64,000 nt of DNA, from NCBI RefSeq assembly GCF_017916505.1, contig NZ_JAFMSZ010000005.1, positions 62,001-126,000 of the forward strand, given 5' to 3'. Positions 5,628-21,142 of this stretch are shown piece after piece. Both the position numbers and the translations under genes were made by a program. The DNA comes from Naasia sp. SYSU D00057. Its GTDB lineage: Bacteria > Actinomycetota > Actinomycetes > Actinomycetales > Microbacteriaceae. Each line of letters begins with the position of its first letter. Positions within the stretch are counted from its first letter, which is position 1. A model generated the notes under the pieces. It saw only the letters and a program-made list of their open reading frames with translations. It was not told where the DNA came from and searched no databases.

Positions 5628-5767
5628 CCGTGGGATCGCCCTCCCCGAGGACCTGAGCACCCGTCACGAAACCGTAACGAACGCCTCAACGGCTCTCCGA
5701 GCCTCTCGGTGACGCCGCCGGCGCGGCACTATTGACCCCGACCTGCCCCGCCTACTCGGAGGACCCC

Positions 5768-6862
5768 ATGTCCCGCTATCCCGCCGCCCGCCTCGTCCCG
5801 ATCGCCGGGATCGCCGCGCTCCTCCTCGCCGGCTGCGGCGCCGCCCCCGAGCAGAGCGGCGCGACCACAGACGCCGGGGCCGAGGACTACTGCGCCCGCA
5901 TGGTCACCAACTCCGGCGGCCTCGAGGACCGCTCGTTCAACCAGACGAGCTGGGCGGGCCTCGAGCGGGCCGCCGAGGAGTTCGGCGTCGACGTCGACGT
6001 CCTCGTCTCCACCAGCGAGACCGACCTCGCCCCGAACGTCGAGCAGGCGGTCGGGTCGGGCTGCCAGTTCGTGCTCACCGTCGGCTACGAGCTCGCGACC
6101 GCGACCCTCGAGCAGGCGGAGGCGAACCCGGACACGCACTTCGCGATCGTCGACGAGACCGTCGACGTCGACGGCGACGGCGAGCCTGACGCGGACAACA
6201 TCAAGCCGATCGTCTTCGACACGGCGCAGGCCGCCTACCTCGCCGGCTACCTCGCCGCGGGCACGTCGAAGACCGGGACCGTCGCGACCTTCGGCGGCGG
6301 CAACCAGCCGCCCGTCACCCTCTTCATGGACGGCTTCGTCGACGGCGTGGCGAAGTACAACGAGGTGCACGGCACCCAGGTGCGCGTCCTCGGCTGGGAC
6401 AAGGAGGCGCAGGACGGCGTCTTCACCGGCGACTTCGAGAACGTGAACCTCGGCAAGACGACCACCGAGCAGCTCATCGCCCAGGGCGCCGACGTGATCC
6501 TGCCGGTCGCCGGCCAGGTGGGCGAGGGTGCGGCCGCCGCGGCGCTCGAGGCCGGCGGCGTGTCGATCATCTGGGTCGACAACGACGGCTACGAGACCCT
6601 GCCGGAGGAGTACCGCCCCATCGTCCTCACCAGCGTCCTCAAGAACACGGAGGACGCCGTCGTCGAGATCGTCGGCGACGACATCGACGGCACCTTCTCG
6701 AACGAGCCCTTCGTCGGCACCCTCGAGAACGGCGGAGTCGGCATCGCCCCGTTCCACGACCTGGCCGGCTCGGTCCCGCAGGAGCTCGCCGACGAGCTGA
6801 CGCAGCTCCAGGAGGACATCATCAGCGGCGCCATCGAGGTGACCTCCCCCTCGACCCCGTAG
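5768..6862 (+). CDS. BMP-family nucleoside-binding lipoprotein, copy 1
   Basis: Substrate-binding lipoprotein of the basic membrane protein (PnrA/BmpA/Med) family, which binds purine and other nucleosides for ABC import. A signal peptide ends in the lipobox LLAGC with C23 as the lipidated residue. Downstream are family blocks such as GGLEDRSFNQ, VFDTAQAAYLAGY and FMDGFVDGV. Length is 364 residues. ATG 5768 is preceded by GGAGG at good spacing. It is followed by a clear paralogue at 7099. The ABC ATPase and permeases lie just beyond. Which nucleosides each copy binds cannot be read from the sequence. Confidence 0.9.
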   Translation: MSRYPAARLVPIAGIAALLLAGCGAAPEQSGATTDAGAEDYCARMVTNSGGLEDRSFNQTSWAGLERAAEEFGVDVDVLVSTSETDLAPNVEQAVGSGCQFVLTVGYELATATLEQAEANPDTHFAIVDETVDVDGDGEPDADNIKPIVFDTAQAAYLAGYLAAGTSKTGTVATFGGGNQPPVTLFMDGFVDGVAKYNEVHGTQVRVLGWDKEAQDGVFTGDFENVNLGKTTTEQLIAQGADVILPVAGQVGEGAAAAALEAGGVSIIWVDNDGYETLPEEYRPIVLTSVLKNTEDAVVEIVGDDIDGTFSNEPFVGTLENGGVGIAPFHDLAGSVPQELADELTQLQEDIISGAIEVTSPSTP

Positions 6863-7098
6863 GGACTCGGCCGGCCGCGAATCCGCCGCCGGAAGAAGTC
6901 CCTGGTCGTGGCCCCGACGTTTCGGATCCATTACGGACCCGTCGCACTTTCATAACGTCTCGGGCACGCGTCCCCCGGGAGAGGGGTCGCGGCGCGTCAC
7001 GCTGTGTAACGTAAGGCCGTCCGAGCCCGGCAGACCGCGGGGTTCGGCGCCATTTGCACCACGCGCCGGCACACCAGCGCGATCATCTGGAGGACACC
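6863..7098 (+). promoter_or_regulatory. Intergenic region with candidate promoters before second BMP gene
   Basis: A 236-bp gap without a gene. TAACGT occurs twice, at 6953-6958 and 7007-7012, and each could be a -10 box. The second would give a leader of about 80 nt to the TTG start. No operator-like palindrome was recognised. Confidence 0.3.
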
Positions 7099-8208
7099 TT
7101 GACCATCTCTCCCCGCCGGGGCCTGGCCGCGTTCGCGACCGTGGGCGCCGCTGCCCTGATTCTCTCCGGCTGCGCGTCGGCTCCTGAGGAGTCCGACTCC
7201 GGCAGCGGAGCCGGCGCCTCGACCGACGTCGTCCCCTGCATGGTCTCCGACACCGGAGGCTTCGACGACAAGTCCTTCAACCAGCTCGGGTCCGAGGGTC
7301 TCGAGGACGGCGCCGAGCAGATCGGCGCCGAGGCGATCAAGGTGCAGTCGGACACCGACGCCGACTACGGCCCCAACCTCAACAACCTCATCGACCAGGG
7401 CTGCACGCTGATCTTCACGGTCGGCTTCAACCTGTCGGCCGCCACGGTCGAGACGGCCACCGCCAACCCCGACATCGACTTCGCGATCATCGACGACGCC
7501 GCGGACAACGACCAGGACGGCGAGACGGACGCGGAGAACATCAAGCCGATCCTGTTCGACACCTCGCAGGCGGCGTTCCTCGCCGGCTACGCGGCGGCGA
7601 GCTACTCGAAGACCGGCATCGTCGGCACCTACGGCGGCATGAACTTCCCGACCGTGTCGATCTTCATGGACGGCTTCGCGCAGGGCGTCGAGTACTTCAA
7701 CACCCAGAAGGGCAAGTCGGTCCAGGTCCTCGGCTGGAGCACCGAGAACAAGGACGGCACGTTCATCGGCAGCTTCGAGGCGGGCACCGACTCCCTCAAC
7801 GCCGCCCAGAACCTGATCGACCAGGGCGCCGACGTGCTCCTGCCGGTCGGCGGCCCGATCTTCCAGAGCGCCGTCGAGGCGATCAAGGACTCCGGCAAGG
7901 ACATCGCGATGATCGGCGTCGACGCCGACCTGACCGAGACCGACCCGGAGAACGCGGGCCTCTACCTCACCTCCATCCTCAAGGGCATGAAGGTCGCCAC
8001 CACGGATGTCATCGTCGAGACCGCGGAGAGCGGCTTCGACGCCACCCCGTACCTCGGCAACCTCGAGAACGAGGGCGTCGGCATCGCGCCGTTCCACGAG
8101 TTCGAGTCGAAGGTGCCCGCCGAGCTCCAGGGCGAGCTCGACGACATCTCCGCATCGATCGTGAGCGGCGAGCTCGAGGTCCCGTCGTACCTCAACTCCG
8201 CCTCCTGA
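7099..8208 (+). CDS. BMP-family nucleoside-binding lipoprotein, copy 2
   Basis: Second binding lipoprotein of the PnrA/BMP family, 369 residues, with signal peptide and lipobox ILSGC (C25). It shares the order and many exact blocks of copy 1 (GGFDDKSFNQ, LFDTSQAAFLAGY, FMDGFAQGV, GNLENEGVGIAPFHEF), so the two are products of an old tandem duplication. The TTG at 7099 is chosen because TGGAGGA lies 6-7 nt upstream and the signal peptide begins immediately after. A strong hairpin follows the stop. Possibly binds a different nucleoside or serves at a different growth stage; this is inference. Confidence 0.9.
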   Translation: MTISPRRGLAAFATVGAAALILSGCASAPEESDSGSGAGASTDVVPCMVSDTGGFDDKSFNQLGSEGLEDGAEQIGAEAIKVQSDTDADYGPNLNNLIDQGCTLIFTVGFNLSAATVETATANPDIDFAIIDDAADNDQDGETDAENIKPILFDTSQAAFLAGYAAASYSKTGIVGTYGGMNFPTVSIFMDGFAQGVEYFNTQKGKSVQVLGWSTENKDGTFIGSFEAGTDSLNAAQNLIDQGADVLLPVGGPIFQSAVEAIKDSGKDIAMIGVDADLTETDPENAGLYLTSILKGMKVATTDVIVETAESGFDATPYLGNLENEGVGIAPFHEFESKVPAELQGELDDISASIVSGELEVPSYLNSAS

Positions 8209-8278: not shown

Positions 8279-8284
8279 TAGATT
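8279..8284 (+). promoter_or_regulatory. -10 box TAGATT, leaderless start of ABC ATPase gene
   Basis: TAGATT is 7 nt upstream of the ATG at 8292, so transcription would begin at or next to the start codon. No Shine-Dalgarno sequence is present. Confidence 0.6.
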
Positions 8285-8291
8285 GGATGAC

Positions 8292-9806
8292 ATGAAGCTC
8301 GAACTCCGCGGCATCACGAAGCGCTTCGGAGCGCTGACCGCGAACGACGCGATCAGCCTCACCGTGGAGCCGGGCGAGATCCATGCCCTTCTCGGCGAGA
8401 ACGGCGCGGGGAAGTCCACCCTGATGAACGTCCTCTACGGCCTCTACCAGGCCGACGAGGGGTCGATCCTGCTCGACGGCGTCGAGCAGCACTTCGCAGG
8501 ACCGGGCGACGCGATGCGTGCCGGGATCGGCATGGTGCACCAGCACTTCATGCTCATCCCGGTCTTCACGGTGGCCGAGAACGTCATGCTCGGGCACGAG
8601 CAGACGAAGGCCATCGGGCGCCTCGACCTCGCCGCCGCGCGGGCGCGAGTCCGAGAGATCTCCGACCGCTTCGGGTTCGACGTCGATCCCGATGCGCGTG
8701 TCGAGGACCTCCCCGTCGGCGTCCAGCAGCGGGTCGAGATCATCAAGGCCCTCTCCCGCGACGCGAAGGTGCTCGTCTTCGACGAGCCCACCGCCGTGCT
8801 CACGCCTCAGGAGACCGACGAGCTCATCGCGATCATGCGCCAGCTGAAGGCGGCCGGCACCTCGATCGTGTTCATCACCCACAAGCTGCGCGAGGTCCGC
8901 GCCGTCGCCGACCGCGTGACGGTCATCCGCCTCGGCAAGGTGGTGGGCGAGGCCGACCCGCAGTCCACGAACGCCGAGCTCGCCTCCCTCATGGTCGGCC
9001 GCTCCGTCGAGCTGACCGTGCAGAAGGAGCCGGCGAAGCCGGGCGATGAGGCCCTCGTCGTGCGGAACGTGTCGGTGCTCGATCCCAACGGCCAGAAGGT
9101 CGTCAACAACGTGAGCTTCGAGGTGCGCCGCGGCGAGATCCTCGCGATCGCCGGCGTGCAGGGCAACGGGCAGACCGAGATCACCGAGGCACTGCTCGGC
9201 CTGCAGCCGCACGTGAGCGGGGAGATCCTGCTGGACGGCAAGTCGCTGATCGGCCTCCCCGTGCGGAAGGTGCTCGACGCGGGCGTCGGCTTCGTGCCGG
9301 AGGACCGCACCGAGGACGGCCTGGTCGCCGAGTTCACGATTGCCGAGAACCTCATGCTCAACCGCAGCACCGGCGAGCCGTTCGTGAAGGGCGGCACTCT
9401 GCAGCTCGGCTACCTCAACGAGTTCGCAGAGCAGAAGCGCAAGGAGTTCGACATCCGCACGCAGAGCGTGCAGTCGCACGTCGGCCGGCTCTCCGGCGGC
9501 AACCAGCAGAAGGTGGTGCTCGCCCGCGAGCTGAGCCGGGACCTCCGCCTGTTCGTCGCCGCGCAGCCCACGCGCGGACTCGACGTCGGCTCGATCGAGT
9601 TCGTGCACACCCGGATCGTGCAGTCCCGCGACGCCGGCATCCCGGTCATCGTCGTGTCCACCGAGCTGGACGAGGTGGTGGCCCTCGCCGACCGGATCGC
9701 CGTCATGTACCGCGGCTCGATCGTCGGCATCGTTCCCGGGGACACCCCGCGCGACGTGCTCGGTCTCATGATGGCGGGCGAGAAGCCCACGGAGGTGGCG
9801 GCGTGA
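8292..9806 (+). CDS. Nucleoside ABC transporter ATP-binding protein
   Basis: Two fused ABC ATPase domains in 504 residues, as in the RbsA/NupA group that partners BMP lipoproteins. Domain 1 has a full Walker A (GENGAGKST, ~35-43), an atypical signature (LPVGVQQRVE) and Walker B (KVLVFDEPT). Domain 2 has the usual degenerate P-loop (GVQGNGQTE), a good LSGGNQQKVVLAREL signature and a Walker B ending in AAQPTRGLD rather than DEP, typical for this group. Start ATG 8292 rather than a TTG at 8283, from the -10 spacing. Its stop overlaps the first permease. Confidence 0.92.
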   Translation: MKLELRGITKRFGALTANDAISLTVEPGEIHALLGENGAGKSTLMNVLYGLYQADEGSILLDGVEQHFAGPGDAMRAGIGMVHQHFMLIPVFTVAENVMLGHEQTKAIGRLDLAAARARVREISDRFGFDVDPDARVEDLPVGVQQRVEIIKALSRDAKVLVFDEPTAVLTPQETDELIAIMRQLKAAGTSIVFITHKLREVRAVADRVTVIRLGKVVGEADPQSTNAELASLMVGRSVELTVQKEPAKPGDEALVVRNVSVLDPNGQKVVNNVSFEVRRGEILAIAGVQGNGQTEITEALLGLQPHVSGEILLDGKSLIGLPVRKVLDAGVGFVPEDRTEDGLVAEFTIAENLMLNRSTGEPFVKGGTLQLGYLNEFAEQKRKEFDIRTQSVQSHVGRLSGGNQQKVVLARELSRDLRLFVAAQPTRGLDVGSIEFVHTRIVQSRDAGIPVIVVSTELDEVVALADRIAVMYRGSIVGIVPGDTPRDVLGLMMAGEKPTEVAA

Positions 9807-11074
9807 CCGACCAGCAGATCCCGTCCCCGAGCCAGGCGGCGCCGATCGTCCCCGACGCTCCCGAGAAGGAGCCGGGGGAGAGCCGCTGGCACGCCTTCGT
9901 CCGTGAGGTGACTCAGGGCAGCGTGCTCATCTCGGTGCTCGCCGTGCTGCTGTCGATCATCGCGGGCGGCATCCTCATCGCCGCCACCGACGAGGACGTG
10001 CAGCGGGCCGCAGGCTACTTCTTCGCGCGGCCCCTCGACACGTTCCGCGCCATCTGGGACTCCGTCGCGGGCGCCTACTCGGCGCTGTTCCAGGGCGCCG
10101 TCTACAACTTCCGCCGTCCCGGCTTCGCGGCCGGCATCCGGCCCCTCACCGAGACGCTGACCTTCGCCACGCCGCTCATCGCCGCGGGACTCGGCGTCGC
10201 GCTCGCCTTCCGCGTCGGCCTGTTCAACATCGGAGGCCGCGGCCAGATGCTGATCGCGGCGGCGGCCGCGGGCTGGGTGGGCTTCGCGCTCGACCTGCCC
10301 TTCGGCATCCACCTGCTGGCCGCGGTGGTCGCGGGCATCATCGCCGGCGGCGTCTGGGGCGGCATCGCGGGTCTCCTCAAGGCTCGCACCGGCGCCCACG
10401 AGGTGATCACGACGATCATGCTCAACTTCATCGCGTTCTACCTCGTCTCGTTCCTGCTGCGGACGCCGGTGCTGCAGGCACCGGGCAGCAACAACCCGAA
10501 GACGCCGGCCATGAAGGAGACGGCCGTCTTCCCCGACCTCTTCGGCCCGGGCTACAACCTGCACGCCGGCTTCCTGTTCGTGATCGTGGCGACCGTCGTC
10601 GTCTGGTACCTGCTCAACCGGTCGAACGTCGGCTTCCAGTTCCGCGCCGTCGGGGAGAACCCGCACGCGGCGCGCGTGGCCGGCATCAACGTCCCGAGCG
10701 TCTACGTGTGGGCGATGGTCATCTCCGGCGCCCTCATCGGCCTCGCCGGCACCGCCCAGGCGCTCGGCACGATCAAGACCGGCTTCGGCTCGGGCATCGA
10801 CGCGGGCATCGGCTTCGACGCCATCACCGTCGCGCTCCTCGGCCGCTCCCGCCCGTGGGGCGTCTTCGCGGCCGGCATCCTCTTCGGCGCCTTCAAGGCC
10901 GGCGGCTTCTCGATGCAGGCCGCCGAGGGCGTCCCGGTCGACATCGTGCTCGTCGTGCAGTCGCTGATCGTGCTCTTCATCGCGGCCCCGCCGCTCGTGC
11001 GCACCATCTTCCGCCTGCGGACCCCGGGCGCTTCCCAGAGACCCTCACGACGGCGGAAGGCGGTGGCCCGATGA
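9803..11074 (+). CDS. Nucleoside ABC transporter permease 1
   Basis: Integral membrane permease (423 residues) of the BPD_transp_2 family, with about eight to ten hydrophobic spans after an N-terminal cytoplasmic stretch. The loop FRAVGENPHAARVAGINV is the family's conserved ATPase-coupling segment. GTG 9803 overlaps the ATPase stop (GTGA) and its own stop overlaps permease 2 (ATGA), so the transporter genes are translationally coupled. With permease 2 it should form the heterodimeric channel for nucleosides delivered by the BMP lipoproteins. Confidence 0.9.
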   Translation: MTDQQIPSPSQAAPIVPDAPEKEPGESRWHAFVREVTQGSVLISVLAVLLSIIAGGILIAATDEDVQRAAGYFFARPLDTFRAIWDSVAGAYSALFQGAVYNFRRPGFAAGIRPLTETLTFATPLIAAGLGVALAFRVGLFNIGGRGQMLIAAAAAGWVGFALDLPFGIHLLAAVVAGIIAGGVWGGIAGLLKARTGAHEVITTIMLNFIAFYLVSFLLRTPVLQAPGSNNPKTPAMKETAVFPDLFGPGYNLHAGFLFVIVATVVVWYLLNRSNVGFQFRAVGENPHAARVAGINVPSVYVWAMVISGALIGLAGTAQALGTIKTGFGSGIDAGIGFDAITVALLGRSRPWGVFAAGILFGAFKAGGFSMQAAEGVPVDIVLVVQSLIVLFIAAPPLVRTIFRLRTPGASQRPSRRRKAVAR

Positions 11075-12351
11075 CGGCCGTGGCTGCGACGCGGGCCCCC
11101 GAGCCCGCCCTCGAGCGCGAGGCGGTGCGCAGCTGGAAGGTGCCGATCGCCCTCGCGATCTTCACGCTCGTCGCGCTCGTCCTGTTCGTCGCGCTCGGCC
11201 GGGACGGCACCTCGACGTTCCGCCTCTCCACCGAGGCGGACGCGTTCCGCCTGCCCGACCTGGCACTGCCGACCCGCGCCGGCTGCATCGTGCTCACGGT
11301 GCTGATGGCGGCGATCACCGCCTACAGCGTGGTGCGCTCCCGCGCCGCTCGGAAGACGCCCCTGTGGCTGATCGCCCTCTTCGGCGTGCTGTTCGTGGTC
11401 GCGTTCCTCACCTGGGCCTCCGCGGGTGCCGCGGTGCCGGTGCCGGGTCTGCTCGTCGGCACCCTCGGCCTCAGCGTCCCGCTCATCTTCGGCGCCCTCG
11501 GCGGCGTGATCGGCGAGCGGGTGGGTGTGGTCAACGTCGCGATCGAGGGGCAGCTGCTCGCCGGCGCCTTCGCGTCGGCGGTGGTCGCCTCGGTGACCCG
11601 GCAGCCGCTCATCGGACTGATCGGCGCCATGGTCGCCGGGATGCTCGTGTCCTTCGTGCTCGCCGCGTTCGCGATCAAGTACCTCGTCGACCAGGTCATC
11701 GTCGGCGTCGTGCTCAACGTGCTGGTCACGGGCATCACGAGCTTCTTCTTCTCGAAGGTGCTCACGCCGAACGCGTCGGTGCTGAACTCGCCGCCCAAGT
11801 TCTCGCGCATCGAGATCCCGGTGCTCTCCGACATCCCGATCATCGGGCCGGCCCTGTTCCGGCAGACAATCATCGTCTACGTCATGTACGTGGCGGTCGC
11901 GCTCGTCTGGTTCTTCCTGTTCAAGACGCGCTGGGGCCTCCGCCTCCGCTCGGTCGGCGAGCACCCGCAGGCGGCGGACACGGTCGGCATCAACGTGGCC
12001 CGCACCCGGTTCTGGAACGTGTCCCTCGCCGGCGCCATCGCGGGCTTCGGCGGCGCGTACCTGACCCTCGGCGCGGTCGGCTCGTTCAACAAGGAGATGA
12101 CGGCGGGCGCCGGCTTCATCGCCCTCGCCGCCGTGATCTTCGGCCGCTGGGACCCGCTGCGCGCCACCCTCGCCGCGCTGCTGTTCGGCTTCGCCCAGAA
12201 CCTGCAGAACGTGCTGAGCATCATCGGCTCGCCCGTGCCGAGCGAGTTCATGCTGATGCTCCCGTACGTGGTGACGATCGTCGCCGTGGCCGGGCTCGTC
12301 GGGCAGTCCCGGGCCCCCGCCGCGAGCGGCAAGCCCTACATCAAGTCATGA
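11071..12351 (+). CDS. Nucleoside ABC transporter permease 2
   Basis: Second permease of the same transporter, 426 residues and about ten hydrophobic spans. It carries the matching coupling loop LRSVGEHPQAADTVGINV and the GERVGVVNVAIEGQLL block common to NupQ-type proteins. The ATG at 11071 is set by the ATGA overlap with permease 1, although the reading frame stays open further upstream. The stop overlaps the cytidine deaminase ATG by four bases, which ties import directly to nucleoside catabolism. Confidence 0.9.
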   Translation: MTAVAATRAPEPALEREAVRSWKVPIALAIFTLVALVLFVALGRDGTSTFRLSTEADAFRLPDLALPTRAGCIVLTVLMAAITAYSVVRSRAARKTPLWLIALFGVLFVVAFLTWASAGAAVPVPGLLVGTLGLSVPLIFGALGGVIGERVGVVNVAIEGQLLAGAFASAVVASVTRQPLIGLIGAMVAGMLVSFVLAAFAIKYLVDQVIVGVVLNVLVTGITSFFFSKVLTPNASVLNSPPKFSRIEIPVLSDIPIIGPALFRQTIIVYVMYVAVALVWFFLFKTRWGLRLRSVGEHPQAADTVGINVARTRFWNVSLAGAIAGFGGAYLTLGAVGSFNKEMTAGAGFIALAAVIFGRWDPLRATLAALLFGFAQNLQNVLSIIGSPVPSEFMLMLPYVVTIVAVAGLVGQSRAPAASGKPYIKS

Positions 12352-12794
12352 CGCCCGGCGTCGGAGGGAACGGGGGAGCGGTGGCGGACATCGACTGGGA
12401 CGGCCTGCGCGAGGTCGCGGTCGAGGCCATGCGGAAGGCCTACGTGCCGTACTCGAACTTCCCGGTCGGGGTCGCCGCGATCGTCGACGACGGTCGCGTG
12501 ATCAGCGGGTGCAACGTCGAGAACGCGTCCTACGGCGTGACCCTCTGCGCGGAGTGCACCCTGGTCTCCGGCCTCATCATGTCGGGCGGCGGCAAGCTGG
12601 TCGCCTTCACGTGCGTGGACGGGGACGGCGGCGCGCTCATGCCGTGCGGCCGCTGCCGCCAGCTGCTCTTCGAGCACTCGGCGGAGGGCATGCTCCTCGA
12701 GACCGTGAGCGGCATCAAGACGATCGACGAGGTGCTGCCCGACGCGTTCGGGCCCCGCACCCTCGCCGCGTACCGCGAGCACCACCAGGGCTGA
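12348..12794 (+). CDS. cdd: Cytidine deaminase
   Basis: Converts cytidine and deoxycytidine to uridine forms. The zinc site is intact: C67-A-E69 within NVENASYGVTLCAEC and C100-G-R-C103 in the PCGRC block, with E69 as the proton shuttle. At 148 residues it is the small homotetrameric type. ATG 12348 overlaps permease 2 (ATGA); an in-frame GTG at 12381 with GGAGCG just upstream would remove 11 poorly conserved residues. Placed at the end of the transporter operon, before a large hairpin. Confidence 0.93.
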   Translation: MTPGVGGNGGAVADIDWDGLREVAVEAMRKAYVPYSNFPVGVAAIVDDGRVISGCNVENASYGVTLCAECTLVSGLIMSGGGKLVAFTCVDGDGGALMPCGRCRQLLFEHSAEGMLLETVSGIKTIDEVLPDAFGPRTLAAYREHHQG

Positions 12795-13733: not shown

Positions 13734-15017
13734 GTGACCGAAGCCTTCGACGCCGTCGACCTCATCCGTGCCAAGCGCGACAAGCGCGAGCTGTCCACCG
13801 CGGAGATCGACTGGCTGGTCGACGCGTTCACGCGCGGCTACGTCGCCGACGAGCAGATGTCGGCCTGGGCGATGGCCGTGCTGCTCAACGGCATGACCCG
13901 GCGCGAGATCCGCGACCTGACGCTCGCGATGATCGAGAGCGGCGAGCGGATGAGCTTCGACGGGCTCGGCAAGGCGACCGTCGACAAGCACTCCACCGGC
14001 GGCGTCGGTGACAAGATCACGCTGCCGCTCGCGCCCCTCGTCGCGGCTTTCGGGGTCGCCGTCCCGCAGCTGTCCGGGCGCGGCCTTGGCCACACCGGCG
14101 GCACCCTCGACAAGCTCGAGTCGGTTCCCGGATGGCGCGCCGACGTCACTCCGGAGGCGATGCGCGACCAGCTGCGCGACATCGGCGCGGTCATCTGCGC
14201 TGCCGGCGCCGGCCTCGCGCCCGCCGACAAGCGCCTCTACGCGCTCCGGGACACGACCGGCACGGTCGAGGCGATCCCGCTCATCGCGTCGTCGATCATG
14301 TCGAAGAAGATCGCGGAGGGCACCGGCGCGCTCGTGCTGGACGTGAAGTTCGGCGAGGGCGCCTTCATGCAGGACCCGGCGCTGGCCCGCGAGCTCGCCC
14401 GGACGATGGTCGACCTCGGCCGGGACGCCGGAGTCGCGACGAGCGCCCTGCTCACCGACATGTCCGTTCCGCTCGGCCTCACGATCGGCAACGCGCTCGA
14501 GGTGCGGGAGTCGGTCGAGGTGCTCGCGGGCGGCGGTCCCTCCGACGTCGTGGAGCTCACCGTGGCCCTCGCCCGCGAGATGCTCGCCGCCGTGGGACAG
14601 GCGGACGCGGACCCCGCCGCGGCCCTCGCCGACGGCCGGGCCATGGACGTGTGGCGCCGCATGATCGCCGCCCAGGGCGGCGACCCGGATGCCGAGCTGC
14701 CGACGGCCCGCGAGACGGAGGTCGTCGTCGCACCCCGCTCCGGCGTCCTCACCGAGCAGCACGCGCTGCCGTTCGGCATCGCCGCCTGGCGCCTCGGCGC
14801 CGGTCGCGCCCGGCAGCAGGACCCGGTGTCGCCCGGCGCCGGCATCGAGCTGCACGCGAAGCCCGGCGATGCGGTTAAGGAGGGGCAGCCCCTGTTCACG
14901 CTGCACGCCGACGAGGAGTCCCGCATCCCGCGCGCCCTGGAGGCGCTCGAGGGGGCCTGGACGATCGGCGACGAGGCGCCGGCGGCCCGCCCGCTCATCG
15001 TCGACCGCATCGCCTGA
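13734..15017 (+). CDS. deoA: Thymidine (pyrimidine nucleoside) phosphorylase
   Basis: Splits thymidine or deoxyuridine with phosphate to the base and deoxyribose 1-phosphate. The family signature SGRGLGHTGGTLDKLES is at residues 114-130 and the phosphate-binding KHSTGGVGDK block at ~85-94. Length 427 is normal for the DeoA/Pdp family, with the C-terminal pyrimidine-nucleoside phosphorylase domain. Start GTG 13734 from the -10 spacing. It continues the nucleoside-salvage theme after cdd but is transcribed separately. It could also accept uridine (Pdp); the sequence does not decide this. Confidence 0.92.
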   Translation: MTEAFDAVDLIRAKRDKRELSTAEIDWLVDAFTRGYVADEQMSAWAMAVLLNGMTRREIRDLTLAMIESGERMSFDGLGKATVDKHSTGGVGDKITLPLAPLVAAFGVAVPQLSGRGLGHTGGTLDKLESVPGWRADVTPEAMRDQLRDIGAVICAAGAGLAPADKRLYALRDTTGTVEAIPLIASSIMSKKIAEGTGALVLDVKFGEGAFMQDPALARELARTMVDLGRDAGVATSALLTDMSVPLGLTIGNALEVRESVEVLAGGGPSDVVELTVALAREMLAAVGQADADPAAALADGRAMDVWRRMIAAQGGDPDAELPTARETEVVVAPRSGVLTEQHALPFGIAAWRLGAGRARQQDPVSPGAGIELHAKPGDAVKEGQPLFTLHADEESRIPRALEALEGAWTIGDEAPAARPLIVDRIA

Positions 15018-15064
15018 CCGGCGCCCTGCAGGGACCCCGGCGCGGGGTCAGGCGGATGGTCGGG

Positions 15065-15152
15065 CGTGACGAATCAAGGAGATCCGCCGGGAACCCGGCC
15101 CGGATCCGCATGAACCGGTCTCACGAGGACCGGATCTCCTTGATTCGTCACG
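15065..15152. repeat. Intergenic hairpin with perfect 22-bp arms
   Basis: The arm at 15065-15086 (CGTGACGAATCAAGGAGATC, then CG) is the exact reverse complement of 15131-15152. The interior has a further weak pairing (CCGGTC/GACCGG). The inner word AGGAGATCCG is shared with the hairpins at 22872, 36158 and 52337. It follows deoA. Confidence 0.75.
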
Positions 15153-15241
15153 CCGCCCACCGCGTGCACGGCGTCGTCGTGGCCCGGGTCGCAGTCGAAG
15201 ACGATCCTGCGCGGCAGGCATCGACATGAGCGCCCGCTCGT

Positions 15242-15262
15242 ATATGCAATCCGGTTTCATAT
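15242..15262. promoter_or_regulatory. Probable IclR-type operator
   Basis: A 21-bp imperfect palindrome with half-sites ATATGCAA and TTTCATAT around a CCG centre; 8 of 10 base pairs match. It lies 18 nt upstream of the ATG of the SAH-hydrolase-like gene, in an AT-rich patch unlike its surroundings. The IclR regulator encoded at 16455 is the likely binder (inference). Confidence 0.55.
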
Positions 15263-15279
15263 GTGTGAGGATCGGCGGC

Positions 15280-16458
15280 ATGGACACCGATCTCGCCGCC
15301 TCGGGCGCCGCCCGCATCACCTGGATCCGCTCCCGCATGCCGCTCCTCGCGGAGATGCGCGCGCAGTTCGCCGAGGAGCGGCCCTTCGAGGGGCTCCGCA
15401 TCGGCATGTCGCTCCACGTGGAGCCCAAGACCGCCGTGCTGCTCGAGACGCTCGCCGCGGGCGGCGCCGAGGTGGTGGGCACGGGCAACCACGGCTCGAC
15501 GCAGGATGACGTGGTCGCCGCGCTCCGCGCGCAGGGGCTCACGATCTTCGGCACCCGCGACGACAGCCTCGACCAGCACCACGCCAACCTCGAGTCGGTC
15601 CTCGACTCCCGGCCGCAGATCCTGCTCGACAACGGTGCCGACCTCGCCGCCGGAGTGGTGCGCCGAGGCATCGCCGGGGACGTCCGCGGCGGCACCGAGG
15701 AGACCACCTCCGGCGCCTTCCGCCTCCGCGACGAGCTCGAAGGGCAGGTGCCGTTCCCGGTGCTCGTCATCAACGACAGCCCGCTGAAGGCGATCGGCGA
15801 GAACCTGCACGCCGTCGGCCAGTCCGCGGTGGAGAGCTTCCAGCGCATCACCAACCTGATGATCCCGGGCCGGCGGTTCGTCGTCGTCGGCTACGGCTGG
15901 TGCGGGCGCGGCGTCGCCCGCTACCTGCGCGCCCTCGGCGGCCAGGTGGCCGTCGCCGAGGTGGACGAGATCAAGGCGTTCGAGGCGGCGCTCGACGGCT
16001 ACCTCGTCGACGACCTCGCGAACCTCCTGCCCGACGCCCAGGCGGTCATCACGGCGACGGGCCATCCGAACGTCCTGCCTGCGGCCCTGCTGCCGCTGCT
16101 GCCCTCCGGAACCGTGCTCGGCAACATCGGCCACTTCCCGTTCGAGATCGACACCGCGGCGCTCGCGGGCCAGGCCGTGTCCCGGCAGCCGCTCGACGAG
16201 GCGCTCGAGGTCTACACGATGGCGGACGGCCGCGAGATCGTCCTCATCGCCGAGGGCCGGATGTTCAACCTCGCGGGCCGCGCGCCGAAGGGCAACTCGA
16301 TCGCCTCGATGGACCTCGGCTTCACGCTGCAGGTGCGCTCCCTGGAGCGCGTCGCGGTCGCTCCGGCCACCCTGCAGGCGGGCGCCCAGCCGATCCCGGA
16401 CGACATCAACCGGTCGATCGCCCGTCGCATGGTCGAGGTCATGCGGACCGGGTCGTGA
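15280..16458 (+). CDS. S-adenosylhomocysteine hydrolase homologue, probable S-inosylhomocysteine hydrolase
   Basis: A 392-residue member of the SAH hydrolase family, short like archaeal and Thermotoga forms. The NAD fold (VVVGYGWCGRG), the EETTSG and NDSPLK blocks and the GHFPFEID catalytic-His block are present. Residues 46-50 read HVEPK (HxExK) where adenine-specific enzymes have HxTxE/Q. The later GHPSFVMSNSF adenine-contact block is also changed (GNSIASMDLGF). As I recall, HxExK marks S-inosylhomocysteine hydrolases. The C-terminal Lys/Tyr tail of bacterial SAHH is absent. ATG 15280 gives the conserved N-terminus; an in-frame ATG at 15226 would run across the operator. Overlaps the IclR gene. 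Catalytic activity is inferred. Confidence 0.75.
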   Translation: MDTDLAASGAARITWIRSRMPLLAEMRAQFAEERPFEGLRIGMSLHVEPKTAVLLETLAAGGAEVVGTGNHGSTQDDVVAALRAQGLTIFGTRDDSLDQHHANLESVLDSRPQILLDNGADLAAGVVRRGIAGDVRGGTEETTSGAFRLRDELEGQVPFPVLVINDSPLKAIGENLHAVGQSAVESFQRITNLMIPGRRFVVVGYGWCGRGVARYLRALGGQVAVAEVDEIKAFEAALDGYLVDDLANLLPDAQAVITATGHPNVLPAALLPLLPSGTVLGNIGHFPFEIDTAALAGQAVSRQPLDEALEVYTMADGREIVLIAEGRMFNLAGRAPKGNSIASMDLGFTLQVRSLERVAVAPATLQAGAQPIPDDINRSIARRMVEVMRTGS

Positions 16459-17177
16459 GCGACCCGGACGCCGGCCCCGGCTATGCGGCGCCGGCGCTCG
16501 AGAAGGGCCTCGACATCCTCGAGCTGCTCGCGGACGCCGCCGGTCCGCTGACTCAGCGGGAGATCGCGGCCGCCCTCGACCGCAGCGTGGGTCAGCTGTT
16601 CCGCGTGCTGCTCACCCTCGAGCGGCGCGGTTTCGCGGTCCGCACCGAGGAGGGCGGCTACCTGCTGTCCGACCGCCTGTTCGAGCTCGCGCACCGGCAG
16701 GAGCCGCGTCGCGGCCTTCTCGCCGCCGCCGCGGCGCCCATGCGGAGGCTGGCTGAGGAGATCGGGCAGTCCTGCAACCTCGGCGTGCCCGAGGGCGATG
16801 TGGTGCGCGTCGTGGCGCAGGCGGAGAGCCCGACCCCGTTCGGGTTCTCGGTACGCGTGGGCGCCGCCTTCCCGCTGGCCGACAGCGTCACCGGCGCGGT
16901 GCTGCGCGCATTCGGCGGGGACGCGGCGGACGACCCTTCCGCGGCCGAGCTGCAGCGGCTCGGGCACGGCGAGCGGGCCGACAGCCTGCACTCCGGCGTC
17001 ACCGACGTCGTCTACCCGGTGCTGGGTGCGGACGGCCGGGCGGTCGCCGCGCTCACCGTGCCGTACGTGTCGACGTCGTACAGCGCGGTCGGGCTGGAGG
17101 CCGTCCGCGCCGCGGTCGCGCGGGCGGCGGAGGAGATCGGCGCGACACTCGGGCGGCGGGCGGAGCCGCGCGGCTAG
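16455..17177 (+). CDS. IclR-family transcriptional regulator
   Basis: 240 residues. The N-terminal winged helix (~13-70; PLTQREIAAALDRSVGQLFR, then VLLTLERRGF) is followed by the IclR effector domain (SCNLGVPEGDVVRVV; YPVLGADGRAVAALTVP). GTG 16455 overlaps the stop of the hydrolase gene (GTGA), so the two are co-translated. It probably controls this operon through the palindrome at 15242-15262. The effector may be a nucleoside or homocysteine-related compound (inference). Its TAG stop forms the first bases of the -10 box of the next gene. Confidence 0.85.
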   Translation: MSDPDAGPGYAAPALEKGLDILELLADAAGPLTQREIAAALDRSVGQLFRVLLTLERRGFAVRTEEGGYLLSDRLFELAHRQEPRRGLLAAAAAPMRRLAEEIGQSCNLGVPEGDVVRVVAQAESPTPFGFSVRVGAAFPLADSVTGAVLRAFGGDAADDPSAAELQRLGHGERADSLHSGVTDVVYPVLGADGRAVAALTVPYVSTSYSAVGLEAVRAAVARAAEEIGATLGRRAEPRG

Positions 17178-17180
17178 ATT
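17175..17180 (+). promoter_or_regulatory. -10 box TAGATT, leaderless start of ada
   Basis: TAGATT overlaps the preceding stop codon and ends 7 nt before ATG 17188. A GGAGGG follows but is only 1 nt from the ATG, too close to act as a ribosome site. Confidence 0.6.
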
Positions 17181-17187
17181 GGAGGGC

Positions 17188-18315
17188 ATGAGCGACTCCG
17201 GCGACTACCTGATGAACGGCGGCCGGGTGGACATCGCGTCGCTGCCGAAGGTCAGCCTCCACGACCACCTGGACGGCGGGCTGCGCCCGCAGACGATCAT
17301 CGAGCTGGCGGACGAGGTCGGCCTCGCGCTGCCCGCCGCCGACGCGGATGCGCTCGGCACCTGGTTCCGAGAGTCCGCGGACTCCGGCTCCCTCCCGACC
17401 TACCTCGAGACCTTCTCGATCACGACCGGCGTCATGCAGACGGCCCCCGGCCTCACCCGCGTCGCCCGCGAGTTCGTGCAGGACCTCGGCGCCGACGGCG
17501 TGCTCTACGGCGAGATCCGCTGGGCGCCCGAGCAGCACCTCACCCGCGGCCTCACGCTCGACCAGACGGTCGAGGCGGTGCAGGCGGGCATCGATGCCGG
17601 CATCGAGGACGTCCGCCGCACCACCGGCCGGGAGATCGGCATCGGCCAGCTCGTGTCAGCGATGCGGCAGAACGACCGCGGGCTCGAGATCGCGGAGCTG
17701 GCGCTGCGGCACCGCGGCAACGGCGTCGTCGGCTTCGACATCGCCGGCCCCGAGGACGGCTTCCTCCCGAGCAGGATGGGCGACGCGTTCGACCTCCTCG
17801 CGGAGAACTGGTTCCCCGTCACCGTCCACGCCGGCGAGGCCGCCGACCTCGACAGCATCGCGAGCGCCCTGCTCGACGGCCGCGCCCTGCGGCTCGGCCA
17901 CGGCGTGCGCCTCGCGCTCGACATCGCGATCGAGGGCGAGGACGAGAACAACACGTGGGTGAGCCTCGGCAGGCTCGCGCACTGGGTGAAGGACCGGGAG
18001 ATCGCCCTCGAGCTGTCCCCGTCGTCGAACCTGCAGACCGGCGCGATCGAGGCGTGGGGCGACGAGCTCGCCGACCACCCATTCGACCTGCTCTACCAGC
18101 TCGGCTTCCGCGTCACCGTCAACACCGACAACCGGCTGATGAGCGACACGTCGATCACGAAGGAGCTCTCGCTCCTCGTCGACACCTTCGGCTACGACCT
18201 CGCCGACCTCGAGGTCTTCCAGCTCAACGCCGCCGGCGCCGCGTTCCTCTCCGTCGAGGATCGCGAGGAGCTCGCCGACCGCATCAGCGCCGGCTTCGAC
18301 GAGGCCGGCGCGTGA
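17188..18315 (+). CDS. add: Adenosine deaminase
   Basis: Deaminates adenosine and deoxyadenosine to inosine forms. The zinc ligands H25 and H27 sit in SLHDHLDGGLRP. VHAGEAAD carries the third His and catalytic Glu, RLGHGVR the catalytic His, ELSPSSN is conserved and NTDNRLMS holds the last Asp. Length 375 is typical of the bacterial ADA family. It has its own promoter just after the SAHH-like/IclR pair. Given that pair, the question is whether it also accepts S-adenosylhomocysteine; known SAH deaminases belong to a different amidohydrolase group, so plain adenosine is the safer assignment. Confidence 0.88.
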   Translation: MSDSGDYLMNGGRVDIASLPKVSLHDHLDGGLRPQTIIELADEVGLALPAADADALGTWFRESADSGSLPTYLETFSITTGVMQTAPGLTRVAREFVQDLGADGVLYGEIRWAPEQHLTRGLTLDQTVEAVQAGIDAGIEDVRRTTGREIGIGQLVSAMRQNDRGLEIAELALRHRGNGVVGFDIAGPEDGFLPSRMGDAFDLLAENWFPVTVHAGEAADLDSIASALLDGRALRLGHGVRLALDIAIEGEDENNTWVSLGRLAHWVKDREIALELSPSSNLQTGAIEAWGDELADHPFDLLYQLGFRVTVNTDNRLMSDTSITKELSLLVDTFGYDLADLEVFQLNAAGAAFLSVEDREELADRISAGFDEAGA

Positions 18316-18346
18316 CCGCCGCTCCGCTCCGGAAGGGCCGCGCCCG

Positions 18347-18619
18347 ATGAAGATCGTCACGATCTGCGGCGCCGGCATCGGCACGTCCGCGATCCTCAAG
18401 GTGAGCGCCGAGCGCGCGCTGCAGCGCCTCGGCATCGACGCGGACGTCACCGCGACCGACGTGGCGAGCCTCGCCCTCGAGGCCGAGGACGCGCAGGTGA
18501 TCCTCACCACGCCCGACCACGTGGACGACATCGGCCGAACATTCGCCGACGTCGTCGTAATCGACAACATCCTCGACCAGGAGGAGCTCGTCGCGAAGCT
18601 GGAGCAGGCGCTCGGGTAG
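18347..18619 (+). CDS. PTS sugar transporter EIIB-like protein, stand-alone
   Basis: A 90-residue protein with the EIIB P-loop (TICGAGIGTSAILK) and the phosphoryl-carrying Cys at position 7, as in lactose/cellobiose, galactitol and ascorbate EIIB proteins. No EIIA, EIIC, HPr or EI gene is adjacent, so it is an orphan subunit. It lies 31 nt after the adenosine deaminase stop, in the same direction, and is probably co-transcribed with it. It may serve a permease encoded elsewhere or a regulatory role; neither can be told from here. Confidence 0.75.
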   Translation: MKIVTICGAGIGTSAILKVSAERALQRLGIDADVTATDVASLALEAEDAQVILTTPDHVDDIGRTFADVVVIDNILDQEELVAKLEQALG

Positions 18620-18653
18620 GGGGACCGCTGGGCTGGAGGGGAAGGCGCAGCGC

Positions 18654-20312
18654 CTAACCCACCAGGCCCCGGGCGCCCTCCTCAAGGCGGGCGAGTACGT
18701 CCGCCGCCGTCGAGCGCCGCTCCTCCACGCTGCCGCGCGTCGCGGCGACGTCGAGGTAGAGCTTCAGCTTCGGCTCCGTGCCGCTCGGGCGGGCGATGAG
18801 GCGCGCGCCCTCCGCGAGCGTGAAGCGCAGCACGTCGCTCGGCGGCAGGTCACCGCCCGGGAGCAGGTCGTCGACCTGCTGAACCGCGAGTCCGCCGATC
18901 GTGGCAGGCGGACGGGACCGCATCCGCTCCATCGCCTGGCCGATCTCCTCCAGCCGGCTCACGCGCACCGAGATCTGGCTGGACGCGAAGACGCCGAAGG
19001 TCTCGTCGAACTCGCGCTGGTGCTCGGCGAACGTGCGGCCGCGGGCTTTCAGGCCGAGGAACTGGTTCACGAAGGCGACCGCGGCCGAGATGCCGTCCTT
19101 GTCGCGCACCTTCTCCGGGTCCACGAGGTATCCGAGCGCCTCCTCGAAGCCGAAGAGCAGGCCCGGCACGCGGGAGATCCACTTGAAGCCGGTGAGCGTC
19201 TCGCGGTAGCCGAGCCCGTAGTGCTCCGCGACGGAGCGGAGCCCGGGGGTGGAGACGATCGACGACGCGAGGGTCCCGGAGGCGCCCTCCGCGGCCGCGC
19301 GCTCCGCGGTGGCCCAGGCGAGCAGGAGGCCGAGCTCGTTGCCGCTGAGGGTCCGCCATCCGCCGTTCCCATCCGGCACGGCCGCGGCGAGGCGGTCGGC
19401 GTCCGGGTCGTTGGCGACCACGAGCTCGGCGTCGGTCTCCGCCGCGAGGGCGAGGGCGAGGTCGAGCGCGCCCTTCTCCTCCGGATTGGGGAACGCGACG
19501 GTGGGGAACGCCGGATCGGGGCGCAGCTGCTCCTCGACGGTGCGCGGCGCGGGGATGCCGGCCTGCTCGAACACGCGGCCCGCGGTCTCCCAGCCGACGC
19601 CGTGCATCGGCGTGTACACCCAGCGCAGCTCGGCGGCCGGCGCGGGAACCGCCGTCGCGACGACGTACGCGTCGACGACGCTCTCGTCCGCGGTGGCGTA
19701 GCCGGTCGAGCGGGGGAGGCGGTCGGCGGGGCCCTCGGCGATGACCTCGTCGATCAGCTCGAGCACCTCGCGGTCGGCCGGCGGCACGATCTGCGATCCG
19801 GCGTCCTCGCCGCCGAGGTAGAGCTTGTAGCCGTTGTCCTGCGCCGGGTTGTGCGAGGCGGTGATCATCACGCCGGCCGACGCGCCGAGGTGGCGCACGG
19901 CGAACGCGAGCACCGGGGTCGGCAGCAGCCGGGGGAGCAGGGTGGCGCGGACGCCGGCGCCCTCGAGCAGCTCCGCGACGTCGCGGGCGAAGACGGCCGA
20001 GTTGTTGCGGCCGTCGTAGCCGATCACGGCCGTCGGGCTCTCCTCGCGGCGGAGGAGGAAGCGCGCGAGGCCCACGGTGGTCTGGGCGACGACGACCCGG
20101 TTCATCCGGTTGGGACCGGCGCCGAGGCTGCCGCGCAGACCGGCGGTGCCGAACAGGAGGCGCGAGTCGAAGCGGTCGTGCAGGTCGGCGAGGGCGTCGG
20201 CACTGCCGGCCCGCGCCTCGCCGAGGACGGCGTCGAGCTCGGCGCGCGTCGCGTCGTCCGGGTCCTGAGCACGCCAGGCGTCGGCGGCCGCGAAGAGCCG
20301 CTCGTCGGTCAC
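18654..20312 (-). CDS. Phosphohexomutase-superfamily protein, probable phosphopentomutase/phosphomannomutase
   Basis: 552 residues with all four domains of the alpha-D-phosphohexomutase superfamily. The phosphoserine loop TASHNPAQDNGYK has S153, the metal loop is NDPDADRLA, the sugar-binding loop FGFEEALGY, and the phosphate loop RPSGTEPKLKLYLD. The length and loops fit the PGM2/PmmB subgroup, which interconverts pentose and hexose 1- and 6(5)-phosphates. GTG 20312 overlaps the stop of the purine nucleoside phosphorylase gene. That suggests the natural substrate is ribose or deoxyribose 1-phosphate. Convergent with the PTS gene. Confidence 0.88.
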   Translation of the reverse strand: MTDERLFAAADAWRAQDPDDATRAELDAVLGEARAGSADALADLHDRFDSRLLFGTAGLRGSLGAGPNRMNRVVVAQTTVGLARFLLRREESPTAVIGYDGRNNSAVFARDVAELLEGAGVRATLLPRLLPTPVLAFAVRHLGASAGVMITASHNPAQDNGYKLYLGGEDAGSQIVPPADREVLELIDEVIAEGPADRLPRSTGYATADESVVDAYVVATAVPAPAAELRWVYTPMHGVGWETAGRVFEQAGIPAPRTVEEQLRPDPAFPTVAFPNPEEKGALDLALALAAETDAELVVANDPDADRLAAAVPDGNGGWRTLSGNELGLLLAWATAERAAAEGASGTLASSIVSTPGLRSVAEHYGLGYRETLTGFKWISRVPGLLFGFEEALGYLVDPEKVRDKDGISAAVAFVNQFLGLKARGRTFAEHQREFDETFGVFASSQISVRVSRLEEIGQAMERMRSRPPATIGGLAVQQVDDLLPGGDLPPSDVLRFTLAEGARLIARPSGTEPKLKLYLDVAATRGSVEERRSTAADVLARLEEGARGLVG

Positions 20313-21142
20313 AGCCGGCCCACGATCTGCGAGAGGAGCCGGGCCAGCGTGCTCTCGGCGGCGCGGCCCGCGGCGAGGACCTCCTCGTGGCTCAGCGGCT
20401 CCTCCTGGATGCCGGCGGCGAGGTTCGTGATCAGCGACATGCCGAGCACCTCCATGCCGGCCTGGCGCGCGGCGATCGCCTCGAGCGCGGTCGACATGCC
20501 GACGATGTGGCCGCCGAGCGTCTCCGCCATCCGCACCTCGGCGGGGGTCTCGTAGTGCGGGCCGCGGAACTGCACGTACACGCCGTCGTCGAGGTCCGCA
20601 TCCACCTCGCGCGCGACGGCGCGCAGGCGGGCCGAGTAGAGGTCGGTGAGGTCGACGAATGTGGCGCCCTCGAGCGGCGAGGCCGCCGTCAGGTTGATGT
20701 GGTCGCTGATCAGCACCGGGGTGCCCGGGGTCCAGGAGCGCTTGATGCCGCCCGCGCCGTTCGTCAGCACCATGACCGTCGCGCCGGCGGCGGCCGCGGT
20801 GCGGACGCTGTGCACGACCCGGCGGACGCCCTTGCCCTCGTAGAAGTGCGTGCGGGCGCCGATCACCAGCGCGTGCTTGCCGTTCGGCAGGCGGAACGAG
20901 CGGAGGGTGCCGCTGTGGCCGACGACCCCCGATGCGGTGAAGCCCTCGATCTGCTCGGCCGGCACGGTGGCGACCTCCTCGCCGAGCAGGTCCGCGGCCT
21001 TCCCCCAGCCGCTGCCGAGCGTGAGGGCGATGTCGTGCCGCTCGACACCCGTGGCCTCGGCGAGCTGCGCTGCCGCGCGCGCGGCGACGTCGAACGGGTC
21101 GGCGGCGGGATCGTCGAGGGCGGAGGAACCGGAAGCTGACAT
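20309..21142 (-). CDS. punA: Purine nucleoside phosphorylase, trimeric type
   Basis: Phosphorolyses inosine and guanosine (and deoxy forms) to base and pentose 1-phosphate. Family blocks in order are TLGSGWGKA (phosphate loop, ~41), HFYEGKG, VLTNGAGGI, ISDHIN, QFRGPHYETPAE and GMSTALEA. N240 in LITNLAAG is the Asn that gives 6-oxopurine specificity in trimeric PNPs. Length 277. Leaderless: TAGGCT lies 7 nt upstream of ATG 21142. It forms an operon with the mutase at 18654, completing base release and pentose-phosphate recovery. Confidence 0.93.
   Translation of the reverse strand: MSASGSSALDDPAADPFDVAARAAAQLAEATGVERHDIALTLGSGWGKAADLLGEEVATVPAEQIEGFTASGVVGHSGTLRSFRLPNGKHALVIGARTHFYEGKGVRRVVHSVRTAAAAGATVMVLTNGAGGIKRSWTPGTPVLISDHINLTAASPLEGATFVDLTDLYSARLRAVAREVDADLDDGVYVQFRGPHYETPAEVRMAETLGGHIVGMSTALEAIAARQAGMEVLGMSLITNLAAGIQEEPLSHEEVLAAGRAAESTLARLLSQIVGRL

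Follow-up and report, generated by a model that had tools for sequence, protein, structure and literature searches.

The 64,000-nucleotide stretch of Naasia sp. SYSU D00057 DNA analyzed here (hereafter the window) contains a gene for a homologue of S-adenosylhomocysteine (SAH) hydrolase (SAHH) that, judged from its residues and from trees, very probably represents a distinct family within the SAHH superfamily. We refer to this family, with HxExK, D131N and D190E, as DN/E. In our favored reading, to which we assign a probability of roughly 0.35, DN/E proteins would be NAD-dependent enzymes acting on a sugar-modified nucleoside, with their chemistry shifted from the C4′/C5′ to the C2′/C3′ side, the exact chemistry being a guess. 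Excerpts from a 2026 review describe the mechanism and key residues of SAHH as exceptionally well conserved across species (PMC13406329). In the DN/E clade, which spans Actinomycetota, Alphaproteobacteria and Gammaproteobacteria, two sugar-side acids have both been replaced in 31 of the 32 sequences.

Residues were numbered by aligning PfuSAHH to the window protein, and this numbering was checked against Glu57/Lys59 of PMC10978960. The window protein reads LDNG where PfuSAHH reads IDDG; its Asn118 aligns with Asp128 of PfuSAHH, the equivalent of Asp131 in the mouse enzyme, and its Glu174 stands at the site of mouse Asp190. According to passages of PMC4647836, mouse Asp131 sits at the alpha face of C4′ as a proton donor, while Glu156 and Asp190 bind the 2′-OH group. 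Parts of two further papers report that D139 of the lupin enzyme abstracts the C4′ proton (PMC13406329) and that the activity of AgmF is abolished by D129A (PMC8599513). Site 118 is Asn in all 26 DN/E sequences (window included) and in six of six added later (32/32), while Glu occupies site 174 in 25 of the 26 and again in all six additions (31/32). Both sites hold Asp throughout 47 other SAHH-type sequences and 26 further non-members (73/73, these being the best-scoring loci rather than all search matches), as well as in three of three paralogues. Since the groups were first labeled by motif, their later recovery as one clade is a partial guard against circularity. Other active-site residues are preserved: H46, E48, K50, E141, T142 and H285 are kept in 26/26 DN/E sequences, K170 and N175 in 25/26, and the NAD motif is kept too.

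The DN/E enzyme probably resembles SAHH up to 3′-oxidation. With these residues in place, the protein would bind NAD+ and oxidize the 3′-OH group of a nucleoside, and E48/K50 would favor a 6-oxopurine base, by analogy with PfuSAHH. Since HxExK is invariant in the family and binds hypoxanthine in PfuSAHH and MmaSAHH (as described in parts of PMC10978960), a 6-oxopurine nucleoside is a reasonable candidate substrate. Because the residue that handles the C4′ proton has been lost and the acid at the 2′-OH group is lengthened, the step past 3′-oxidation is most likely not the elimination of a 5′-thiol. More probably it lies on the C2′/C3′ side, for example in an epimerization that would turn arabino- or xylo-type inosine into inosine. 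In its most specific and only tentative form, this proposal would make the DN/E protein an NAD-dependent nucleoside 2′- or 3′-epimerase for the salvage of arabino- and xylo-nucleosides, with the SAHH fold retained and the acid/base moved from C4′ to the 2′ side.

Chance similarity or a pseudogene can be ruled out by the residue conservation together with substitution rates. Against three close relatives the nonsynonymous rate (dN) is 0.09–0.12 and the synonymous rate (dS) 0.50–0.54; since dN is well below dS, the gene appears to be under purifying selection. The AdoHcyase and AdoHcyase_NAD domains both score above the Pfam cut-off, and AlphaFold2 predicts an SAHH fold with a predicted local distance difference test score (pLDDT) of 88.6. 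All 50 matches listed by Foldseek are SAHHs (query template modeling score 0.84–0.88 in 12 of the first 15), the nearest structures coming from Thermotoga, Sulfolobus, Pyrococcus and Synechocystis. By sequence, the best match in the PDB is PfuSAHH, and the best matches also include TmSAHH and MmaSAHH. Several features that an earlier, sequence-only reading of this DNA had pointed out in the protein were recovered. HVEPK is present at residues 46–50 of the 392-residue translation, the second base-contact segment is altered (window KGNSIASMDLGF versus TGHPSFVMSNSF or a near form in canonical rows), and the bacterial Lys/Tyr C-terminal tail, described in a portion of PMC10978960, is absent, the window protein stopping at residue 392.

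That this is a plain canonical bacterial SAHH is very improbable. In favor of one stands the automatic name, as the protein passes the NCBIfam adenosylhomocysteinase equivalog NF004005; however, the base motif, the catalytic Asp and the tree position all differ. The canonical signature HxTxE/Q, LDDG, FDN is absent from the window protein, its score against TIGR00936 (ahcY) is 348.7 and falls below the cut-off of 497.6, and a canonical copy is encoded elsewhere in the genome.

In a tree of 55 rows the 26 DN/E sequences form one clade (support 100/97). Those HxExK enzymes that retain both Asp residues (Pfu, Mma, Tm, Paenibacillus and haloarchaeal) group with SAHHs (98/92). A second tree of 59 rows, with the haloarchaeal row omitted, places 29 DN/E sequences in one clade (99/95). 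Its later-added rows were only L116, L143, L144, L117 and L136; L104 was omitted for its long branch. This row is a haloarchaeal plasmid SAHH homologue (L104, 6980–8224) with HLEQK, both Asp and EQTTA, encoded behind an ECF transporter annotated QueT. To limit their size, the trees omit 24 hydrolase rows. They are midpoint-rooted and contain long branches, one of which is the paralogue group. Dropped before counting were L024/L051 (contig of L012), L002, L014–L016, L057 and L113 (copies of the window, L004 or L003) and L105/L106 and L145–L147 (same genes as L059/L065 and L114–L116). Besides Microbacteriaceae, DN/E is represented in two further actinobacterial families (G264, G266), on rhizobial plasmids, and in Photobacterium and two Vibrio species. 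Within Microbacteriaceae, matches at E 1e-120 or better occur in 62 of 299 genomes and 29 of 85 genera, the motif having been checked in the fetched ones only.

The sequence-only reading had proposed the window protein as a possible S-inosylhomocysteine hydrolase (SIHH), yet it falls outside the branch with the characterized SIHHs and SAHHs. Forcing DN/E and SIHH-type sequences together costs 6.8 log units (approximately unbiased test, p 0.0402), a marginal rejection for a group that was named after the first tree. Hydrolysis of S-inosylhomocysteine, or of another 5′-thio-inosine, is a possibility that we regard as doubtful. Here SAH, imported or internal, would be deaminated first, and another group or H46 would replace the C4′ base. 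HxExK, H46 and H285 are invariant, three enzymes of this type (PfuSAHH, TmSAHH and MmaSAHH) are among the best PDB sequence matches, and S-inosylhomocysteine would yield inosine, which suits the adjacent hydrolase or purine nucleoside phosphorylase (PNP). All this is opposed by the Asn at the Asp128 equivalent in 32/32 sequences and by the separate clade. In addition, none of the eight amidohydrolases scanned, of ten matches in the genome, reaches the cut-off for an MTA/SAH deaminase; the nearest candidate (L087) is of TRZ/ATZ type and scores 148 bits against 779 for NF012037, although a diverged deaminase could still be present. No homocysteine gene was among the features annotated near the Vibrio nigripulchritudo copy; elsewhere no systematic search was made.

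SAH is, moreover, already recycled by a canonical SAHH and LuxS, both encoded in the window genome. Eight of the 11 genomes carrying a DN/E gene also have a canonical SAHH. G008 and G019 (99% complete) lack one but contain the nucleosidase MTAN above cut-off and LuxS, and we rejected for them the idea that DN/E replaces SAHH. In G030 (87% complete), which has a DN/E gene, canonical SAHH, MTAN and LuxS were not seen, and this genome is too incomplete to judge. SAH recycling is thus provided for without the DN/E gene, and the DN/E enzyme is not the main SAH-recycling enzyme of the cell. The deamination-first SAH-recycling operon proposed from the sequence alone is weakened by the C4′ Asp to Asn replacement in 32/32, by the separate clade and by the canonical SAHH and LuxS of the genome.

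HxExK itself had been read as the mark of archaeal SIHHs. The motif is indeed present without variation across the family, but the pair E..K also occurs in a third, paralogous group (L025–L027) that lacks His55, and we came to doubt its value as a diagnostic sign. Because of this occurrence, HxExK may be ancestral and non-diagnostic for S-inosylhomocysteine use; the comparison suggests that the motif alone is no safe sign of it.

Table 1. Features of the window around the SAHH-like gene.
Feature	Coordinates	Strand	Basis
Two PnrA-like (Bmp) substrate-binding proteins	5732–8208 (5732–6862, 7054–8208)	+	Pfam PF02608 above cut-off, both
ABC transporter, PnrA/nucleoside type: ATPase 8283–9806, permeases 9803–11074 and 11071–12351	8283–12351	+	PF00005, PF02653
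Cytidine deaminase (cdd)	12348–12794	+	PF00383/PF08211
Thymidine/pyrimidine-nucleoside phosphorylase (deoA)	13734–15017	+	NF004490, 633.6 bits, cut-off 269
17-codon N-terminal remnant of a UriH-type nucleoside hydrolase, divergent to the SAHH-like gene	15167–15217	−	tblastn 76%/17 aa
SAHH-superfamily protein, DN/E family (HxExK, D131N, D190E)	15280–16458	+	392 aa; Pfam, alignment
IclR-family regulator	16455–17177	+	PF09339, PF01614; 4-bp overlap with SAHH-like gene
Adenosine deaminase (ADA family)	17188–18315	+	NF006847, 514.7 bits, cut-off 412
Phosphotransferase system (PTS) IIB-like protein, 90 aa	18347–18619	+	PF02302; best NCBIfam match ascorbate IIB/IIBC, far under cut-off
PGM/PMM-superfamily phosphosugar mutase	18654–20312	−	Superfamily match; no NCBIfam cut-off passed
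Purine nucleoside phosphorylase, N240	20309–21142	−	TIGR01698, 305.5, cut-off 302.6

From its genes, the locus looks like one for nucleoside uptake and breakdown (Table 1). The ABC transporter is assigned to the nucleoside type because of the Bmp proteins and the neighbors. A gene for a DUF4232 protein also lies upstream, between cdd and deoA in the listed order, and add starts 10 bp past iclR. Pfam and NCBIfam matches confirm the IclR regulator, the ADA and the PNP noticed from the sequence alone, the Asn of the PNP being residue 240. The supposed pentomutase is a phosphosugar mutase of the PGM/PMM superfamily, but its label as phosphopentomutase is unproven, since it passes no NCBIfam cut-off. 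N118/E174, the upstream PnrA-type transporter with cdd and deoA, the PTS IIB protein and the hydrolase remnant were missing from that reading, whose observation is real and whose interpretation is partly supported.

The hydrolase remnant stands at the place where relatives have the intact gene, and is backed by its translation and by DNA comparison with two relatives (L003 and L004); the intact L003 hydrolase passes the UriH model NF052221 with 528 bits (cut-off 450). Since the nearest of six other hydrolase matches in the genome is only about 40% identical to the UriH of the relatives, no UriH orthologue seems to be left. A long-armed hairpin follows deoA at 15058–15157 (−64.1 kcal/mol, 100 bases folded as RNA), and L004 matches this place with 71% over 75 bases. 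The hairpin is probably a terminator separating deoA from the hydrolase gene that was lost.

The gene order suggests a path for our favored chemistry at C2′/C3′. The transporter would bring in a modified nucleoside, ADA would deaminate it, and the DN/E enzyme would turn the deaminated product into an ordinary ribonucleoside. Final breakdown would be left to the nucleoside hydrolase, which the window no longer encodes, or to PNP and the mutase. The same gene order provides a short list of candidate nucleosides.

We compared this arrangement with 18 Microbacteriaceae loci of the same type as the window (window excluded, some ending at contig edges), later 21 with L145, L146 and L148. A UriH-type nucleoside hydrolase gene is adjacent upstream and divergent in 13/18 and then 14/21 loci, ADA follows downstream in 14/18 and 15/21, and IclR is found in 16/18 and 18/21. 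PTS IIB occurs in ten and PTS IIA in nine of the 18. Locus L044 contains the hydrolase and ADA, without transporter or deoA in the stretch examined. V. nigripulchritudo combines a nucleoside hydrolase, the SAHH-like gene, ADA, ribokinase, DeoR and a NupC transporter; genes for an ascorbate-type PTS, transaldolase and transketolase are found close to this copy. In the Microbacteriaceae genome G697, whose copy is just 43% identical, a polyamine-type ABC transporter, the SAHH-like gene, a PfkB-family kinase and a nucleoside hydrolase stand together. G839 has an operon-type copy and a second one of another subclade (G839:C41) beside a PnrA-type ABC transporter, and SDR and Gfo/Idh/MocA proteins; two rhizobia show LysR, the SAHH-like gene and Gfo/Idh/MocA. 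With neighbors varying between loci, a single operon common to all DN/E members was rejected. Ascorbate-type PTS IIA/IIB genes lie near the family in the window, in L008 (12041–12759) and in L099 (2942–4948). Such a PTS is near DN/E genes in Microbacteriaceae and V. nigripulchritudo, IIC having been noticed only in the latter.

These neighbors also bear on two further explanations. An unlikely one is a redox nucleosidase, in which 3′-oxidation would be followed by loss of the base from C1′, a side reaction of ordinary SAHHs having become the main one. Koeppl et al. detected the free nucleobase as a by-product in every one of their set-ups (parts of PMC10978960), D131N would block the competing 5′ route, and free ribose would suit the ribokinases adjacent in two loci; such an activity would however be redundant in the 14 of 21 loci where a nucleoside hydrolase adjoins. 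Less likely still is a weakly catalytic sensor or pseudoenzyme, binding a nucleoside together with NAD and acting in concert with IclR. This would fit the loss of the catalytic Asp, the overlap with iclR and the adjacency of iclR in 18/21 Microbacteriaceae loci, but H46, E141, T142 and H285 are invariant, K170 and N175 nearly so, and ten loci of other subclades gave no iclR match.

Several observations weigh against our favored reading of C2′/C3′ chemistry. The invariant H46 and H285 are the 5′-position histidines of SAHH and suit 5′ chemistry equally well, and the protein passes NF004005. The sole exception to the residue pattern, L011, has Asp at site 174, Thr for Lys170 and a one-residue deletion; this copy (marine actinobacterium PHSC20C1, 9001–10176) alone looks degraded at Lys170–Asn175, through decay or sequencing error. 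The copies in L012, L013, L045 and L046 sit apart from the operon, and L145 has only IclR and L146 no recognized neighbor. In the other subclades, hydrolase and ribokinase are near in 2/10 loci and ADA in 1/10, and a nucleoside setting is found in just 3/10, counting the PnrA-type transporter of G839. For the copies of V. fortis, Photobacterium, L105, L106 and L143, none of the nucleoside genes tried had a match. Having hydrolase and ribokinase in only 2/10 of these loci lowers our confidence in the favored reading and raises it in an SIHH. The proposed path also presumes that ADA tolerates changes at the 2′/3′ rather than the 5′ position.

Among the matches listed in a full-text search of open-licence PubMed Central there was no paper on the DN/E family, and none on an operon of adenosylhomocysteinase and nucleoside hydrolase or on D130N. 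Since NF004005 accepts DN/E proteins as adenosylhomocysteinases, reconstructions of the methyl cycle that trust this name would err.

The closest known systems are the SIHHs PfuSAHH, MmaSAHH and TmSAHH (EC 3.13.1.9 type). They share with DN/E the HxExK motif, the short C-terminus, the NAD domain, the His pair and the Lys/Glu/Thr/Asn of the 3′-OH site, at 36–40% identity (Foldseek). DN/E differs from them in having Asn for Asp128, Glu for Asp190 and, in most members, GN(S/P/T) for GHP; it forms a separate clade, and the window gene stands in a nucleoside-salvage setting. Because a defining catalytic residue was looked for and Asn was found in its place, DN/E sequences belong under neither SAHH nor SIHH. 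The paralogue group L025–L027 (loci L052–L056) resembles DN/E in the E..K of its base motif, which reads (V/I)LEPK instead of HxExK. Unlike DN/E, it has lost His55 and the GHF gate, keeps Asp131 and Asp190 and has other neighbors. In L052 the paralogue gene overlaps one of the amidohydrolase superfamily, which matches the TRZ/ATZ type best but stays below cut-off; farther along, a binding protein of amino-acid type is encoded. The third comparison is with AgmF, the angustmycin A dehydratase. According to parts of PMC8599513, AgmF needs Asp129 and Asp188 where DN/E has Asn and Glu, an equivalence drawn through SAHH numbering with AgmF itself not aligned. The same parts of that paper make AgmF a precedent for DN/E: an SAHH homologue that refuses SAH and uses another nucleoside.

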